A stretch of 20,199 nucleotides of DNA. It comes from a virus. The notes under the pieces are model-generated. The model ran no database searches, was not told the origin of the DNA, and saw only the letters and a list, made by a program, of their open reading frames with translations. Below, piece by piece: positions 56 to 10,619 of this stretch. The position numbers and the translations under genes are program-made. Where the stretch lies: the IMG/VR virus record IMGVR_UViG_3300020410_001089, positions 1-20,199 of that record; one strand, written 5' to 3'. Each line of letters starts with the position of its first letter. Position 1 is the stretch's first letter.

Positions 56-85
56 ATTTTTACATAGCCTTGCAGCCATGTCAAG
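56..85 (-). promoter_or_regulatory. Intergenic hairpin/promoter-like element, copy 1
   Basis: Read on the minus strand this is CTTGAC-ATGGCT-GCAAGG followed by CTATGTAAAAAT. It shares CTTGAC-N6-GCAAGG exactly with the copies at 5135-5106 and 10619-10590. As RNA it can fold as CUUG, bulged A, CA, loop UGGC, UG, CAAG. As DNA it reads as a TTGACA -35 box, a 17-bp spacer and AAAAAT as a weak -10 with a TG one base upstream. The polymerase stop codon (83-81) lies inside the TTGACA box. It sits at the end of the polymerase block and before the next gene. Promoter, operator or RNA hairpin function is inference; the repeat itself is directly visible. Confidence 0.6.
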
Positions 86-2627
86 CAGTTTTATCTGATT
101 TTAGGTCAGAAAGTTTTGTATAAATCTTATTTGTTTGGACAGCTATCAAGTCCGCAAAGACCGCTTCGTCAACTTTAGTTCCTTTAACGATAACGATATT
201 CTTTTCTTTGGGTAAGCCGTCGTTCATATTTTTACATTGCTCTAATTTATCTTTAAAGATGAGAGCTTTCATAAAGCCTGTTTCGTCAGAAATAAGCATC
301 CGACAGTATTTATTGCCGTTCTTCGAGCTTCCGGAGTAGGGCTTCTCTTCAACTATACCTATAAACTCTACTCTTCTGCCTTTATTGGATTCTTCTATCT
401 CTTTAATGCTAGTTAATCCCGGCCTTTTATCCTTAAAGATGTCTCTCAGCTCTCTGCCGTGGGTATATCCTAATAAATGTTTTTCGTAATACCAGTTAGC
501 AAAGCTTTCTGATTTTCTATTTTGGCTATAAATGTCTTTATAAGGGGCGCACTTCTTTTTGATTGTTTGTATTCTGGATTCCCTAATTAAAGGCTTGCCC
601 TTGTCGTCCTTTTTCTCGCTCAAGGCTTTTACTAGAGCTACTAGATCGTAGTCAGAGCCTTCGCTATACTTCATGCACAGCAATTTCTCTTTCTCAGTAA
701 GTATATTCCATAACTGAGCTTCGTATACAACCTTAGTTCTGCTCTGCTTGAACCCCTCTAGTGCTCCGGCTTGTATCAAGGCACATAGAGTCCCTATGTT
801 CAAAAGAGCTTCTTTGGCTGACTGAAATATTTCGTATTTGTTTGCGTACTCGTTTTTAAAGTTATTCAGTCGGTCGATAGATTTATCGGATATACCTCTA
901 ATGGACAATAAGCCAAATCTGATATTATCGCCTTCGATACTAAAGTCTAATTGAGACTTAGTTATATGTGGGGCAAGCAACTTAATATTAAAGTAGCTTA
1001 GCTCTTTTTCTATTTTAGATATTTCTTTGATTGGGTCTGGCTCGTGACGAGTCATCTTCAATAAAGACAAGAAAAACTCCTTCGGGTGTTTGAACTTGAG
1101 GTAAATGGTAGCAGCAGCTAGAGAAGCGTAAGCAATAGAGTGCGACTTATTAAAAGAGTAGTTAGCCGAATCTTCTAAAACACTCCAGAGCACGTCGCTG
1201 ACTTCGGGCGCTAAATTGTTTTCTTTAACTTTAGCTACGATTTTCTTCTTCCACTTTTTGACTTCTGCTACTTTCTTTTTACCTACGATACGACGCAAGA
1301 TTTCCGCTTCATCAAGTGTGAAGCCGATCTTGTGCGCCATTTGCATCATCTGTTCTTGATATAAACAAACACCGCCAGTAGTAGAAAGGATATCATCAAA
1401 AACGGGATGGATAGCTTCATAAACATCATTGTTAGAAAAGTTTGAGTATTGATCTACGAACGACAAAGCCCCCGGCCTACCTAGGGCGAGTACAGCGCTG
1501 AGTTGTTCTAAATTTTTTGGTTTTACTTTTTGACAGACTCTATAGTTTGTGTCCGCCTCAATTTGAAATAGTCCATGAGGAGTTTTAAGGTCTTGCAGCT
1601 TTTGGTATATAAATACATCCTCTAGGTCTATGTCGGTTACTTTTATGCCTATCTCTTTGCAGGCTTGGTCTACGACCGAAACACTTCTAAGTCCAAGTAT
1701 GTCGAGCTTCACATTATACAAGGATACCCAGTTCATATCGTAAGACGATACTATGTCCTTATCTGAAGTAAGCTCTGTTGGGCAAGAGTTCTCTATGTCG
1801 TCGTATGATAATAAAATGCCAGACGGGTGAGAGCCTTTGTTCTTGATTAAGTTTCTAAGGCGTAAGGCTATATTATAAGTCTCAAGATTGTCTGCGCACC
1901 AAGAGTCAAATGGCTCTGATTCTTCTCTGGCCTCTTCAATGTCTTTAACTTTGCCAAAAACTTTAGGTATGTGTGACGAAACGACATTCATCTCCGTTTC
2001 ATCTTTTTCAGCTACTATCTTGCCACACTCTTTCATAAGCAGTTTGCCACTCAATGTGTTAAGAGTTAAGATTTTGCCAGTCTTGCCTTTGAACTTGGTC
2101 TCAAGAAATTCTAGGACTTTACCTCTATTGTAGTAGCATACGTCGATATCAACATCGCACATCAGCTCTCCGTCAAGGTAAGTGATACCGTCTACTATTT
2201 TCTTTTTCGCCCTAGTCTTAGAAATAAATCTCTCAAAGAACAATCCATATTTAATTGGGTCGACATCAGTAACTCCAATTAAGTACAAGACTAAGCTGCC
2301 AGCAGCAGAACCTCTTCCTAGCCCAACTGGTATATCTTCTTTACGGCAGTAGTTAAGTACATCCCAAACAAGCAATATATAATCAACAAAGCCTAAATCT
2401 TTTAATGTCTCTAATTCGTATTTAGTCCTGTCTGCATACTCTTCAGCTTTAGAGGGGTCTAACTGAGAAAGCTTCATCCTTCTCTCGTAACCTTCATAAC
2501 AAATAGAAGTCAAAAAGGTTAGGTTATCTACGTTAGCTTTGTTTTCTTCTACCGAGAACTCGGGGAGCCTTACCCCGTGCATATCTATTTTTATTGGCCT
2601 AAAATCTTTTACGAAAGTTTCACTCAT
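81..2627 (-). CDS. dnaE: DNA polymerase III alpha catalytic core (DnaE-like, PHP domain absent)
   Basis: This is the replicative DNA polymerase of the C family, lacking the N-terminal PHP domain that normally precedes it. The 848 residues align with DnaE from just after the PHP domain: LPEF and the SICYEGYERR helix near 21-50, GLGRGSAAGS at 102-111, catalytic aspartates D158 and D160 in CDVDIDV, the third catalytic aspartate D309 in VKLDILGLRS, the HPSGILLS motif at 267-274, a fingers segment YQEQMMQMAHKIGF followed by LRRIVGKKK, and an OB fold near 735-835. About 17 extra residues lie just before CDVDIDV (141-157) compared with bacterial DnaE. A GAAGG about 8 nt before the ATG is a good ribosome site, and the gene overlaps the 67-aa gene upstream by 8 nt. 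The PHP half is at 5099-4335. No intein-like end is seen. The family call is secure. Confidence 0.95.
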   Translation of the reverse strand: MSETFVKDFRPIKIDMHGVRLPEFSVEENKANVDNLTFLTSICYEGYERRMKLSQLDPSKAEEYADRTKYELETLKDLGFVDYILLVWDVLNYCRKEDIPVGLGRGSAAGSLVLYLIGVTDVDPIKYGLFFERFISKTRAKKKIVDGITYLDGELMCDVDIDVCYYNRGKVLEFLETKFKGKTGKILTLNTLSGKLLMKECGKIVAEKDETEMNVVSSHIPKVFGKVKDIEEAREESEPFDSWCADNLETYNIALRLRNLIKNKGSHPSGILLSYDDIENSCPTELTSDKDIVSSYDMNWVSLYNVKLDILGLRSVSVVDQACKEIGIKVTDIDLEDVFIYQKLQDLKTPHGLFQIEADTNYRVCQKVKPKNLEQLSAVLALGRPGALSFVDQYSNFSNNDVYEAIHPVFDDILSTTGGVCLYQEQMMQMAHKIGFTLDEAEILRRIVGKKKVAEVKKWKKKIVAKVKENNLAPEVSDVLWSVLEDSANYSFNKSHSIAYASLAAATIYLKFKHPKEFFLSLLKMTRHEPDPIKEISKIEKELSYFNIKLLAPHITKSQLDFSIEGDNIRFGLLSIRGISDKSIDRLNNFKNEYANKYEIFQSAKEALLNIGTLCALIQAGALEGFKQSRTKVVYEAQLWNILTEKEKLLCMKYSEGSDYDLVALVKALSEKKDDKGKPLIRESRIQTIKKKCAPYKDIYSQNRKSESFANWYYEKHLLGYTHGRELRDIFKDKRPGLTSIKEIEESNKGRRVEFIGIVEEKPYSGSSKNGNKYCRMLISDETGFMKALIFKDKLEQCKNMNDGLPKEKNIVIVKGTKVDEAVFADLIAVQTNKIYTKLSDLKSDKTA

Positions 2628-4357: not shown

Positions 4358-5099
4358 CTAGGCTTTCTACGCTAAATTCGTCAGAGCACATATGGTCTAA
4401 ATTTGGTTTACTCAAAGTTGTCCTCTTGCTAATGCATCTAAAGGTAAGATACGTCTTAAAGTCGGCTTTATTCTTATAGTAAATGCTTTTTGTTTTTACT
4501 ACCTCGCCTCTGCCCTTTGCGAAATCTTTAACTTTTGATTCAAGTATATGATCGAAGGGTAGGTTATTGTCCTCGACAAAAAATGTAAGAGGTATTGAGT
4601 TAGTGTCAGGGACACATAAGGATGTAGTCAAGTTATTATAATATAAAAACGAATCATAAAATGGAACACATAGCTTTAAGTGCTTCTTATCCCATAGTGA
4701 TTTGATTGTATTATAGTCTAGTCTAGGCTCATAGTAAAAACCTTCTTTAGCCGCTATGCTGTAGAGTTTTATTAAAAGTCTATATCCGTGAGTATTTCTG
4801 GCAAATATTACAAACTTACAAGCTTTAGTTAAAGATTCTGGAGTCTTGTCTGAAATATCATTGCATACAGTAATTCTGAGTCCATAATGCAAGCCTATCT
4901 TAGAAGACTTTAGGTTTGAGTAGGCTTCAAGGAAGCCGCTCATACCGTCTTCGACCGAAAATACTCTTTCCATACCCCTAGACTTAGCAATGTCGACAAT
5001 AGAGTCTGGCTCATTGTCTTTAGATGCGTCCTCAGCCTTGTATGTTAGCACAGACTTGCCGATGCTGTAGTGAGATTTGAATAGCGGAACCAAATCCAT
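4335..5099 (-). CDS. dnaE: Stand-alone PHP domain of DNA polymerase III alpha (split DnaE, N-terminal part)
   Basis: The 254 residues match the N-terminal PHP domain of DnaE along its length: KSHYSIGKSVL in place of HSEYSLLDG, RGMERVFSVEDGMSGFLEAY in place of GMPALALTDHGNMYGAVEFY, NTHGYRLLIKLYSIAAKEGFYYEPRLD (residues 102-128), and a C-terminal segment whose KTYLTFRCISKRTTLS and SDEFSVESLDE correspond to the 'LLCIQTGKTL' and 'SDEFYLKSPEEM' segments. The protein ends there, while the polymerase core gene at 2627-81 resumes about where DnaE would continue. The usual HxH and TDH metal ligands are replaced (F6/K8 region, V49-D51), as is the later DxH (KSI, 204-206), so it is probably inactive as a nuclease and structural. 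AGGG 7 nt before the ATG is a plausible ribosome site. It is the first gene of the polymerase block. Confidence 0.85.
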   Translation of the reverse strand: MDLVPLFKSHYSIGKSVLTYKAEDASKDNEPDSIVDIAKSRGMERVFSVEDGMSGFLEAYSNLKSSKIGLHYGLRITVCNDISDKTPESLTKACKFVIFARNTHGYRLLIKLYSIAAKEGFYYEPRLDYNTIKSLWDKKHLKLCVPFYDSFLYYNNLTTSLCVPDTNSIPLTFFVEDNNLPFDHILESKVKDFAKGRGEVVKTKSIYYKNKADFKTYLTFRCISKRTTLSKPNLDHMCSDEFSVESLDEKIQNN

Positions 5100-5105
5100 A
5101 TGAAT

Positions 5106-5135
5106 ACCCTAACCCAGCCTTGCTTGATAGTCAAG
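5106..5135 (-). promoter_or_regulatory. Intergenic hairpin/promoter-like element, copy 3 (before the PHP gene)
   Basis: Read on the minus strand: CTTGAC-TATCAA-GCAAGG followed by CTGGGTTAGGGT. The fold is CUUG, bulged A, CU, loop AUCA, AG, CAAG. A TTGACT box stands 17 bp before TAGGGT, a poor -10, and the same AGGG is a good ribosome site for the PHP gene (ATG at 5099). If TAGGGT were the -10, transcription would begin about at the ATG, so the promoter reading and the ribosome-site reading compete here. It fills the only sizeable gap between 6115 and 81 and marks the junction between the recombination/helicase block and the polymerase block. Confidence 0.6.
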
Positions 5136-8483: not shown

Positions 8484-8738
8484 TTACTCTTTTATGTCGT
8501 CTTCTTCGTCTGGATCTATCTTTTCAGTTATCGATGCTATTAAATTGTCTACAGAAACCTGCTCTATTGCTTCCGACCAGTTCTTGATATAAGAGGCTAA
8601 TGCTAGTGCATATAAGTTAGTATCAAAATGAGAGTAACACGATACCGAGCCTTCTCCGTCACTTGTGAAAAGTACAAACCCCCCGCTAGAGTGCTCGTTG
8701 AGTTGAGTTATTATTGATTTAGGGAGTTTGTTCGACAT
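8484..8738 (-). CDS. Small acidic unknown protein, 84 aa
   Basis: No family is recognised. I chose the ATG at 8738 (MSNKLPKS) over an in-frame TTG two codons earlier. The chain has a beta-hairpin-like stretch (GGFVLFTSDGEGSVSCYS), a helix (NLYALALASYIKNWSEAIEQV) and a very acidic C-terminal tail (DPDEEDDIKE). The hairpin-plus-helix outline loosely resembles the 67-aa protein at 2823-2620. It abuts the helicase gene with no gap, so translation is likely coupled. A small acidic partner of the helicase or recombinase is conceivable, but that is inference from position. Confidence 0.72.
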   Translation of the reverse strand: MSNKLPKSIITQLNEHSSGGFVLFTSDGEGSVSCYSHFDTNLYALALASYIKNWSEAIEQVSVDNLIASITEKIDPDEEDDIKE

Positions 8739-9167: not shown

Positions 9168-10237
9168 ATAAGCGACCTAAACTTCTTCTCAAAGAATTCG
9201 GTTAGTTTGGGGTCTTGCTCGAACAGCTCAACGACTTTCTTTTCGCCTTGTATTTTTTGAGGTATCTCTATCTTTTTAGATTTTAACTCCTCAATTACGT
9301 CATCTGAAAACTCATGCCAGCCAGCACCTTTTACAGATAGGAATTCCCAAGCTATCGCTAGGTCGTAAACTTCCCTTTCCTTCCAAATATGCGCTCCGTT
9401 GACTTTGTCGTATTTAATTGGGATAGCTACCTCTTGGCCGGTTTTTTCGTTACGAGTCTTAGTGAAACGCATAACGCAATAATGACCTATCTTTTTGCCT
9501 TTTTCTTTTATTGTGCCTGCCGATGGGTTCTCCCAGATATAGAGGTCTGTCCAAAGCCTTTGTATTTCCGCTATCGTAGAACTGTAATACCCCAAGGCTT
9601 TACCTCCGGATTGAGTGTTGCCCGCTATGCCTGTTTGGGTGTTCATTTTAGTTCTATTTTGGGATAAGATAATCAAGCTATGGCCAAATCTAGATATTGG
9701 TAAGCTGAGAGCTTTACCTGCTACCGAGAATACAGATGCTCCACCAGCTATCTTTTGAGGCCCATTGAATCCTTTTTTAGATAAACTGTCTTCGTCGTCT
9801 TTACGGATGAGAGCGTCACTAGAATCCATTATAAAAAGATATTTCTTTTCGTCTTTATTATTAGTGCATAGTTCTCTAATTAACCCTAACGCTCCTTCTA
9901 GGTAATTGCTATCAAAGCAAAACCATCTCTTTTCAGAGGTGTCCACCCCTATCCTGTCAAGCATTTCTGGAGTGACTCTTCCTTCTGCATTTATGTAAAC
10001 GACAAAAGAATTTTCGACCGTAGTTTGAAATATTTTAGCAAGATTGATAGCAAAGCTAGTTTTGCCAGACTCAAATTCTCCAGATATTCTAAATATGCCG
10101 GGTCTGTTGCCTCCGTCCATAAACATATCAAGGCTTATACTCCCCGTCCCACTTGTCCAATCATGCCTCTCTCCCTTATTGTAATGAAGGTCTTTTAACT
10201 TACCCTTCTCCAGTAGTTCTTTTATTTGCTTATCCAT
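9164..10237 (-). CDS. recA: RecA/UvsX-like recombinase
   Basis: A 357-aa strand-exchange ATPase. Walker A is GEFESGKT (53-60). INAEGRVTPEMLDRIGVD (82-99) matches the 'DaE.a.dp.ya..lGvd' segment, with the likely catalytic Glu at 85. KKYLFIMDSSDAL (131-142) is Walker B. LIILSQNRTKMNTQTGIAGNTQSGGKALGYYSS corresponds to loops L1/L2 and the 'GG.AlkfyaS' region. It lacks the long acidic C terminus of bacterial RecA but has a lysine-rich tail. It overlaps the 117-aa gene upstream by 8 nt and shares ATGA with the nuclease downstream. It probably drives recombination-dependent replication and repair. Whether it is closer to UvsX or RecA cannot be settled by eye. Confidence 0.93.
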   Translation of the reverse strand: MDKQIKELLEKGKLKDLHYNKGERHDWTSGTGSISLDMFMDGGNRPGIFRISGEFESGKTSFAINLAKIFQTTVENSFVVYINAEGRVTPEMLDRIGVDTSEKRWFCFDSNYLEGALGLIRELCTNNKDEKKYLFIMDSSDALIRKDDEDSLSKKGFNGPQKIAGGASVFSVAGKALSLPISRFGHSLIILSQNRTKMNTQTGIAGNTQSGGKALGYYSSTIAEIQRLWTDLYIWENPSAGTIKEKGKKIGHYCVMRFTKTRNEKTGQEVAIPIKYDKVNGAHIWKEREVYDLAIAWEFLSVKGAGWHEFSDDVIEELKSKKIEIPQKIQGEKKVVELFEQDPKLTEFFEKKFRSLI

Positions 10238-10583
10238 TTCTCAAAAAATCTAATAAGTTTCGCGGCTTTCTTTTTACTTGTTTATCCTCGCCCTGCTTCT
10301 CTTCTTCAATCTCTATCTTGTCATTCTTTTTGATAGAGAACTCTTTAACTGATTTTAATTCTTTTAAATATTTGATTTTGTCTGGCTTTAAATAGTGAAC
10401 GAGCGTATATACTTTGTATTCACTTTCGTTTCTAACTATCCACTTCCAGAAAGAGGGGTCAGGGAACAGCGCGTAAAGCTTTTTAGCCTGCTTTAGCTGA
10501 TGAATGTAAGTTACTTTTTGTGGGTCTACGCAGAAGTTTGCGATAATAAACTTACATGTTTCATGCTCGATATTGCCACTCAA
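10230..10583 (-). CDS. Unknown 117-aa protein before recA (TTG start)
   Basis: No family is recognised. The frame opens with TTG at 10583-10581 (SGNIEHETCKF follows). There is no methionine codon in the frame, so TTG or another non-ATG start is required. The N-terminal half is rich in aromatic and helical residues (FIIANFCVDPQKVTYIHQLKQAKKLYALFPDPSFWKWIV in two helices), followed by a charged lysine/glutamate linker (KKNDKIEIEEEKQGEDKQVKRK) and a short conserved-looking end, PRNLLDFLRNG, that could be a peptide docking on a partner. It heads the recombination/helicase block, directly after the element at 10619-10590, and overlaps recA by 8 nt. A recombination mediator or loader is one guess from position only. 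Confidence 0.7.
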   Translation of the reverse strand: MSGNIEHETCKFIIANFCVDPQKVTYIHQLKQAKKLYALFPDPSFWKWIVRNESEYKVYTLVHYLKPDKIKYLKELKSVKEFSIKKNDKIEIEEEKQGEDKQVKRKPRNLLDFLRNG

Positions 10584-10589
10584 GAAATC

Positions 10590-10619
10590 ATTGTTACATA
10601 ACCTTGCTAGCTAGTCAAG
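10590..10619 (-). promoter_or_regulatory. Intergenic hairpin/promoter-like element, copy 2 (before the recA block)
   Basis: Read on the minus strand: CTTGAC-TAGCTA-GCAAGG followed by TTATGTAACAAT. Apart from the bulged A, CTTG-CTAGCTAG-CAAG is a perfect 16-nt palindrome. A TTGACT box stands 17 bp before AACAAT, which also has TG one base upstream. The GDP-mannose dehydratase stop codon (10613-10611) lies inside the element. The first start codon (TTG, 10583) lies 18 nt after GCAAGG, the same distance as at copy 3. It is the boundary between the sugar island and the replication block. Confidence 0.62.

Follow-up and report, generated by a model that had tools for sequence, protein, structure and literature searches.

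The window analysed here, the whole stretch of 20,199 bases, is an entire viral record and carries tightly packed genes, nearly all of them on the minus strand. In the list of open reading frames, the only gaps longer than 12 nt lie between positions 5099 and 5138 (38 nt), between 10583 and 10611 (27 nt) and below position 81. The sequence CTTGAC-N6-GCAAGG occurs in exactly three copies, all on the minus strand (copy 1, 10619-10602; copy 2, 5135-5118; copy 3, 85-68), each located in or at one of these gaps. The preliminary description of this DNA had reported both the three exact copies and their placement at the only sizeable gaps between minus-strand genes, and both observations hold: none of 100 dinucleotide shuffles contained the exact sequence. 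Degenerate copies with up to three mismatches show no excess in the window (17 found, 11.0 ± 3.9 expected). In copies 1 and 3, the stop codon of the upstream gene overlaps the repeat in different frames, so the conservation is at the DNA level rather than the protein level.

All three copies display features of the sigma-70 type, namely, a TTGACA-like -35 hexamer, a 17-nt spacer (within the 16-18 range) and a -10 hexamer. The features of the three promoters, P1 to P3, and of the genes that they precede or follow are these:

10590-10618, minus strand: promoter P1, with -35 TTGACT (10618-10613), 17-nt spacer (10612-10596), -10 AACAAT (10595-10590) and TGn (10598-10596)
10602-10607, minus strand: spacer element GCAAGG of P1, at -24 to -19
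10230-10583, minus strand: 117-aa protein, function unassigned, first gene of the recombination/helicase operon
5106-5134, minus strand: promoter P2, with -35 TTGACT (5134-5129), spacer (5128-5112) and -10 TAGGGT (5111-5106); ATG at 5099
5118-5123, minus strand: spacer element GCAAGG of P2
4335-5099, minus strand: first polymerase-operon gene, encoding the PHP domain of DNA polymerase III alpha, which is split in this phage (PF02811, 6.7e-10; phrog_405, 1.6e-15)
81-2627, minus strand: core of DNA polymerase III alpha, encoded by the gene that closes the polymerase operon (PF07733, 5.6e-53; phrog_405, 3.7e-157)
56-84, minus strand: promoter P3, with -35 TTGACA (84-79), spacer (78-62) and -10 AAAAAT (61-56) with TGn; ATG at 43-41
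68-73, minus strand: spacer element GCAAGG of P3
1-43, minus strand: start of the first gene of the next operon, MIQFYKPNPKVTGS..., whose orthologous product (189 aa) combines a Whirly-like fold with an acidic tail

The -10 boxes of the window (AACAAT, TAGGGT and AAAAAT) are weak, with 3-4 of the six positions matching, and better -10 boxes are found at the orthologous places in relatives. A TGn triplet precedes the -10 box in copies 1 and 3, which have YTATGTAAMAAT in common where copy 2 has CTGGGTTAGGGT; the pattern YTATGTAA-MAAT, previously noted in two copies, is indeed shared by these two and is reinterpreted here as an extended -10. A simple promoter scan finds copies 1 and 3 unaided, P1 scoring 9 of 12 with the TG. 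From the end of the -10 box, the start codon is 6 nt away in P1 (TTG, as in the relative G004) and in P2 (ATG), and 12 nt away in P3 (ATG).

The 117-aa protein encoded next to P1 has no Pfam or PHROG match; the genes that follow it in the operon encode RecA-, nuclease-, DnaB-, primase- and PD-(D/E)XK-like proteins. In the polymerase operon, an exonuclease gene and small genes separate the PHP gene from the polymerase core, and the DNA polymerase III alpha is split in almost all relatives. The orthologue of the gene after P3 (L045:7970-8539) encodes a protein with a predicted Whirly fold (model pLDDT 86.5) and an acidic tail, for which the best PDB matches of the model in Foldseek are plant WHY proteins (E 9e-6, TM 0.55). 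Judging by this structural model, the protein after P3 is a probable ssDNA-binding protein, that is, a phage SSB of unusual fold.

Given that the window is the entire viral record, further copies were sought in relatives. Searches with DnaE and RecA yielded about 40 related viral loci with shared gene order, and a search with the PHP protein yielded 51 loci, most of them new. In our own tally, 25 of 32 relatives have TTGAC upstream of the PHP gene, usually with a -10 box and an ATG at the same distance; under a stricter promoter test, 23 of 46 members of a second set of relatives have a promoter at this place. Where gene order is kept, TTGAC often also appears after dnaE. GCAAGG is retained only in the nearest relative, L199, at P2, where 0 of 36 bases differ from the window, compared to 41 of 464 in the upstream flanks and 33 of 762 in the PHP gene. 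The orthologues of the three promoters in G004 (DnaE about 82% identical) contain CAAAA, CAGAA and CAGAA in place of GCAAGG; the P1 orthologue (L045:19362) has the same architecture, and the P3 orthologue (L045:8580) likewise has a 12-nt leader. The preliminary description had named disappearance of the motif from these junctions in near relatives as evidence against a signal; this applies to GCAAGG, whereas the promoter is kept.

The pattern that includes TATGTAA has no match in any of the viral contigs. A single contig, L198, matches the full leaderless pattern, and, with no family gene detected nearby, this match is probably due to chance. The genome collection contains one true member of the phage family, L118, a 14-kb contig in a metagenome-assembled genome of an uncultured Flavobacteriaceae bacterium. 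L118 is a distant member (51% DnaE identity) and too weak a lead to name a host; its binning may hint at the host or be an error. To our knowledge, TTGACA/TATAAT is not the Bacteroidota promoter.

We scanned the window together with 19 contigs (20 contigs, 1.33 Mb) for TTGAC, a 16-18-nt spacer and a -10 box followed, 3-14 nt on, by an ATG-started open reading frame of at least 45 codons. The scan detected 251 promoters compared to a mean of 13.1 for ten scrambled -35 words, counts that are not all independent because G011 and G018 are among overlapping contigs. The leader is exactly 6 nt long in 126 of the 251 promoters, against 1.1 for the scrambled words and 4 in the same scan of 1.32 Mb of bacterial contigs, in which longer leaders are about equally common. 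Shine-Dalgarno sequences occur at close to the shuffled frequency in the window and in several of the relatives; some are present in G021, G018, G020 and G023. With the start codon 6 nt past the -10 box, the first genes are predicted to be translated from leaderless or near-leaderless mRNA. Phage transcripts are reportedly often leaderless (PMC5312081).

A different motif, GTGTAAT, is located 7-8 nt before start codons throughout the family (26 occurrences versus 4.0 in the control for G018, and 24 versus 3.0 for G023). In the window it lies at 8753-8747 on the minus strand, with an ATG at 8738, and it was also found in L067-L077, L108-L117, L050-L053 and others. This motif has no -35, is constant between genomes and sometimes precedes very large genes; it is probably a late promoter read by a conserved phage sigma factor. 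Two kinds of phage sigma factors are encoded in the family, one at L046:16484-17095 and L057:4558-5157 and the other at L057:14939-15670, each with orthologues. At least nine genomes contain one of these kinds; a DUF736-like gene often follows it, and in several genomes this DUF736-like gene has a TTGAC promoter of its own. The genes of the 203-kb relative also include one for a tmRNA (L072:8618-9001) and 17 for tRNAs.

Across the family, the position occupied by GCAAGG in the window holds a word that differs from genome to genome: TAAAGC in G020, GAAA in G018 (outside the early region), CCCC or CCCG in G026, AAGGT in G009, AAGT in G013 and CAGAA in G004. All seven 17-nt spacers of G020 contain TAAAG, six of them TAAAGC, and at least 10 of the 13 TTGAC-N5-7-TAAAG sites of this genome are promoters, the element rarely being found apart from promoters. 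The information content exceeds that of within-spacer shuffles in G018 (z 19.9), G020 (z 10.0) and G026 (z 5.6), and more weakly in G004 (z 3.6) and G013 (z 2.8). G018, the 203-kb genome, has a second type of spacer in an early array of small genes, which suggests that the GAAA type belongs to a middle class.

In a leave-one-out analysis of 92 spacers, with the window excluded and near-duplicate spacers removed, the six columns at -24 to -18 assigned 51-53 spacers to their own genome, compared to 10.8 (maximum 26) with shuffled genome labels. The six columns adjoining the -10 box assigned 12-14 and those adjoining the -35 box 19. A first version that included the window gave 60 of 93 from the element columns versus 26 of 93 from all other columns. 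G023 has little or no element, with only 2-3 of its 17 spacers assigned. The genome-specificity of the element rests on the relatives, as the three window promoters alone cannot show it.

We consider it quite likely that the three copies are middle-type promoters of replication operons, of the sigma-70/sigma-A type, that contain a lineage-specific candidate site for a phage-coded protein. Under this model, P1 would start the operon of the 117-aa protein, RecA, helicase, primase and nuclease, P2 the operon from PHP to DnaE, and P3 the operon of the SSB-like protein. The host sigma-70 would recognise TTGAC and the -10 box, and RNA would start about 7 nt past the -10 box, that is, at the start codon in P1 and P2 and 6 nt before it in P3. 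The layout of the promoters, their distance to the start codon and the place and genome-specificity of the element are observed directly, whereas we infer the use of the host RNA polymerase and the leaderless state of the actual RNA. The phage-specific control signal previously suggested is thereby narrowed: control of transcription, on one strand and in the gaps between blocks, stands, and the specific part is GCAAGG, whereas CTTGAC is an ordinary -35 of the sigma-70 type. Likewise, the copies divide the genome into blocks as operon starts, not as boundary marks as such.

GCAAGG is this lineage's version of an element whose position is shared by relatives and whose sequence differs per genome. 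Most likely, a phage-coded protein binds the element, contacting the spacer beside sigma region 4, and switches the middle-type promoters. The centres of the element and the -35 box are about 11 bp apart, one turn of the DNA, and on the same face. We know of no base-specific contact of sigma-70 at -24 to -19 that differs between close relatives, and a phage-coded spacer binder would therefore be the simplest cause of words that change in concert. The private spacer tags thus suggest a fast-changing phage regulator, more likely an activator than a repressor given the poor -10 boxes of the window. Taken alone, the existence and the sign of such a regulator are, as far as the sequences go, close to an even call.

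Neither an examination of those G004 and G020 proteins that are conserved or lack annotation nor a family scan over the genomes identified a DNA-binding protein that reads the element. The conserved phage sigma factor was rejected as the reader, its recognition helix being almost invariant while the word varies. Nor did these scans, in which the window phage is represented by an incomplete genome, reveal a CI-like repressor: the protein that the PHROGs label as such is a type I signal peptidase (S26), present in three phages (L057:10566-11030, L098:1661-2161 and L062:11938-12489).

That the sites are instead asymmetric operators, in which TTGAC and the variable core bind an immunity or timing repressor like those of cluster A mycobacteriophages, with a specificity that varies by lineage and each phage silencing its own kind alone, appears rather unlikely to us. 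The sites are oriented with transcription, lie in short gaps, carry lineage-specific words and could be contacted in two regions spaced by roughly one helical turn; phage L5 and its relatives have 20-30 such sites with a distinct consensus in each subcluster (PMC6550527; structure in PMC9283540). However, cluster A sites are mostly without promoters, whereas nearly all sites here come with a correctly spaced -10 box and start codon, and, apart from a few in G020, there are no free-standing sites of the stoperator kind. Furthermore, the CI-like matches are the signal peptidases, and no integrase, which was not sought by name, turned up in the parts scanned. It is also improbable that these are ordinary host-type promoters only, the shared GCAAGG being a functionless by-product of promoter copying within the genome. 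TTGAC and the -10 box are of the host type, and near-copy promoters do occur in one early array (G021, L060), but in G020, G018, G026 and G009 the bases on either side differ around a preserved core, and the leave-one-out signal is strongest at -24 to -18 and is lost beside it even with near-duplicates removed.

Recognition by the phage's own sigma factor seems quite improbable: the family does encode the two kinds of sigma-like proteins, but the recognition helix of the family-wide sigma, STQTAINLHEKG, hardly varies while the core differs per genome, the -35 and -10 boxes are classical sigma-70 sequences, and the family-wide, -10-only GTGTAAT promoter suits this sigma better. A terminator or RNA element at block ends, built on a CTTG/CAAG hairpin, is extremely unlikely. 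The 3' ends of genes coincide with the copies, CTTG-N9-CAAG pairing is possible, and copy 3 has a somewhat more favourable fold than its shuffles (z -2.6); yet copies 1 and 2 do not (z -0.3 and -0.6), a G+C-rich hairpin with a T run is absent from the three sites, and relatives keep TTGAC and the -10 box but not the pairing. A general palindrome, CTTG-N9-CAAG, would account for the window and some relatives but not for G018, G026 or G004. Two further readings were dismissed: an ATG-TAA minigene after AAGG in copies 1 and 3, which is missing from copy 2 and from relatives, and GCAAGG as a Shine-Dalgarno sequence, for which 18-25 nt from the start codon is too far.

Returning to sigma-70-type middle promoters with a phage-specific site, we tentatively extend this reading to the family as a whole, a generalisation that we judge somewhat more prone to fail than to hold. 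The phages of this large split-DnaE family would use leaderless middle promoters with a 6-bp tag at -24 to -19 that is particular to each lineage, has changed in concert across the genome and is read by a fast-evolving phage-coded factor, marking the phage's own promoters against those of relatives and the host. Between the window phage and G004, the -35 and -10 boxes are kept and the six intervening bases have all changed together, so that any reader of the element must have shifted its specificity on this time scale. The system thus offers a testable case of co-evolution, with one regulator and dozens of sites. More broadly, sequence alone yields a promoter map of an uncultivated phage family with genomes of up to 203 kb, with true start codons predicted.

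A search limited to open papers did not find the same combination of promoter features described. The promoters resemble the extended -10 promoters of sigma-70/sigma-A in TTGAC(A/T), the 16-18-nt spacer, TAnnnT and, in copies 1 and 3, TGn; what sets them apart is that a further hexamer, conserved but lineage-specific, occupies -24 to -19 and that the start codon falls at about +1. In T4 middle promoters, the MotA box, (a/t)3TGCTTtA, is centred at -30, 12 ± 1 bp from the -10 box, and replaces the -35, and an excellent -10 is needed (PMC2988021). As in the MotA/AsiA system, the promoters serve replication, recombination and nucleotide genes and combine a host -10 with an element specific to the phage (PMC2988021), but here the -35 is intact, the element is centred at about -21.5 and has other sequences, and many -10 boxes are poor. 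Partial scans of relatives' proteins detected no MotA or AsiA family member; the window promoters are not of the MotA type but may work similarly. The operators and stoperators of cluster A mycobacteriophages share the orientation with transcription, the short gaps and the lineage-differing word (PMC6550527, PMC9283540), although theirs are mostly outside promoters, whereas the family sites here are promoters with a -10 box and a start codon. Leaderless starts with a -10 box next to the open reading frame are common in Deinococcus-Thermus, where TANNNT lies 6-7 bp before the start codon without a ribosome-binding site (PMC12340547), a layout that the promoters here would share; in those bacteria, however, the pattern is host-wide and centred on the -10, whereas the promoters in the present case belong to phages, keep a strict -35 and contain a private spacer element.
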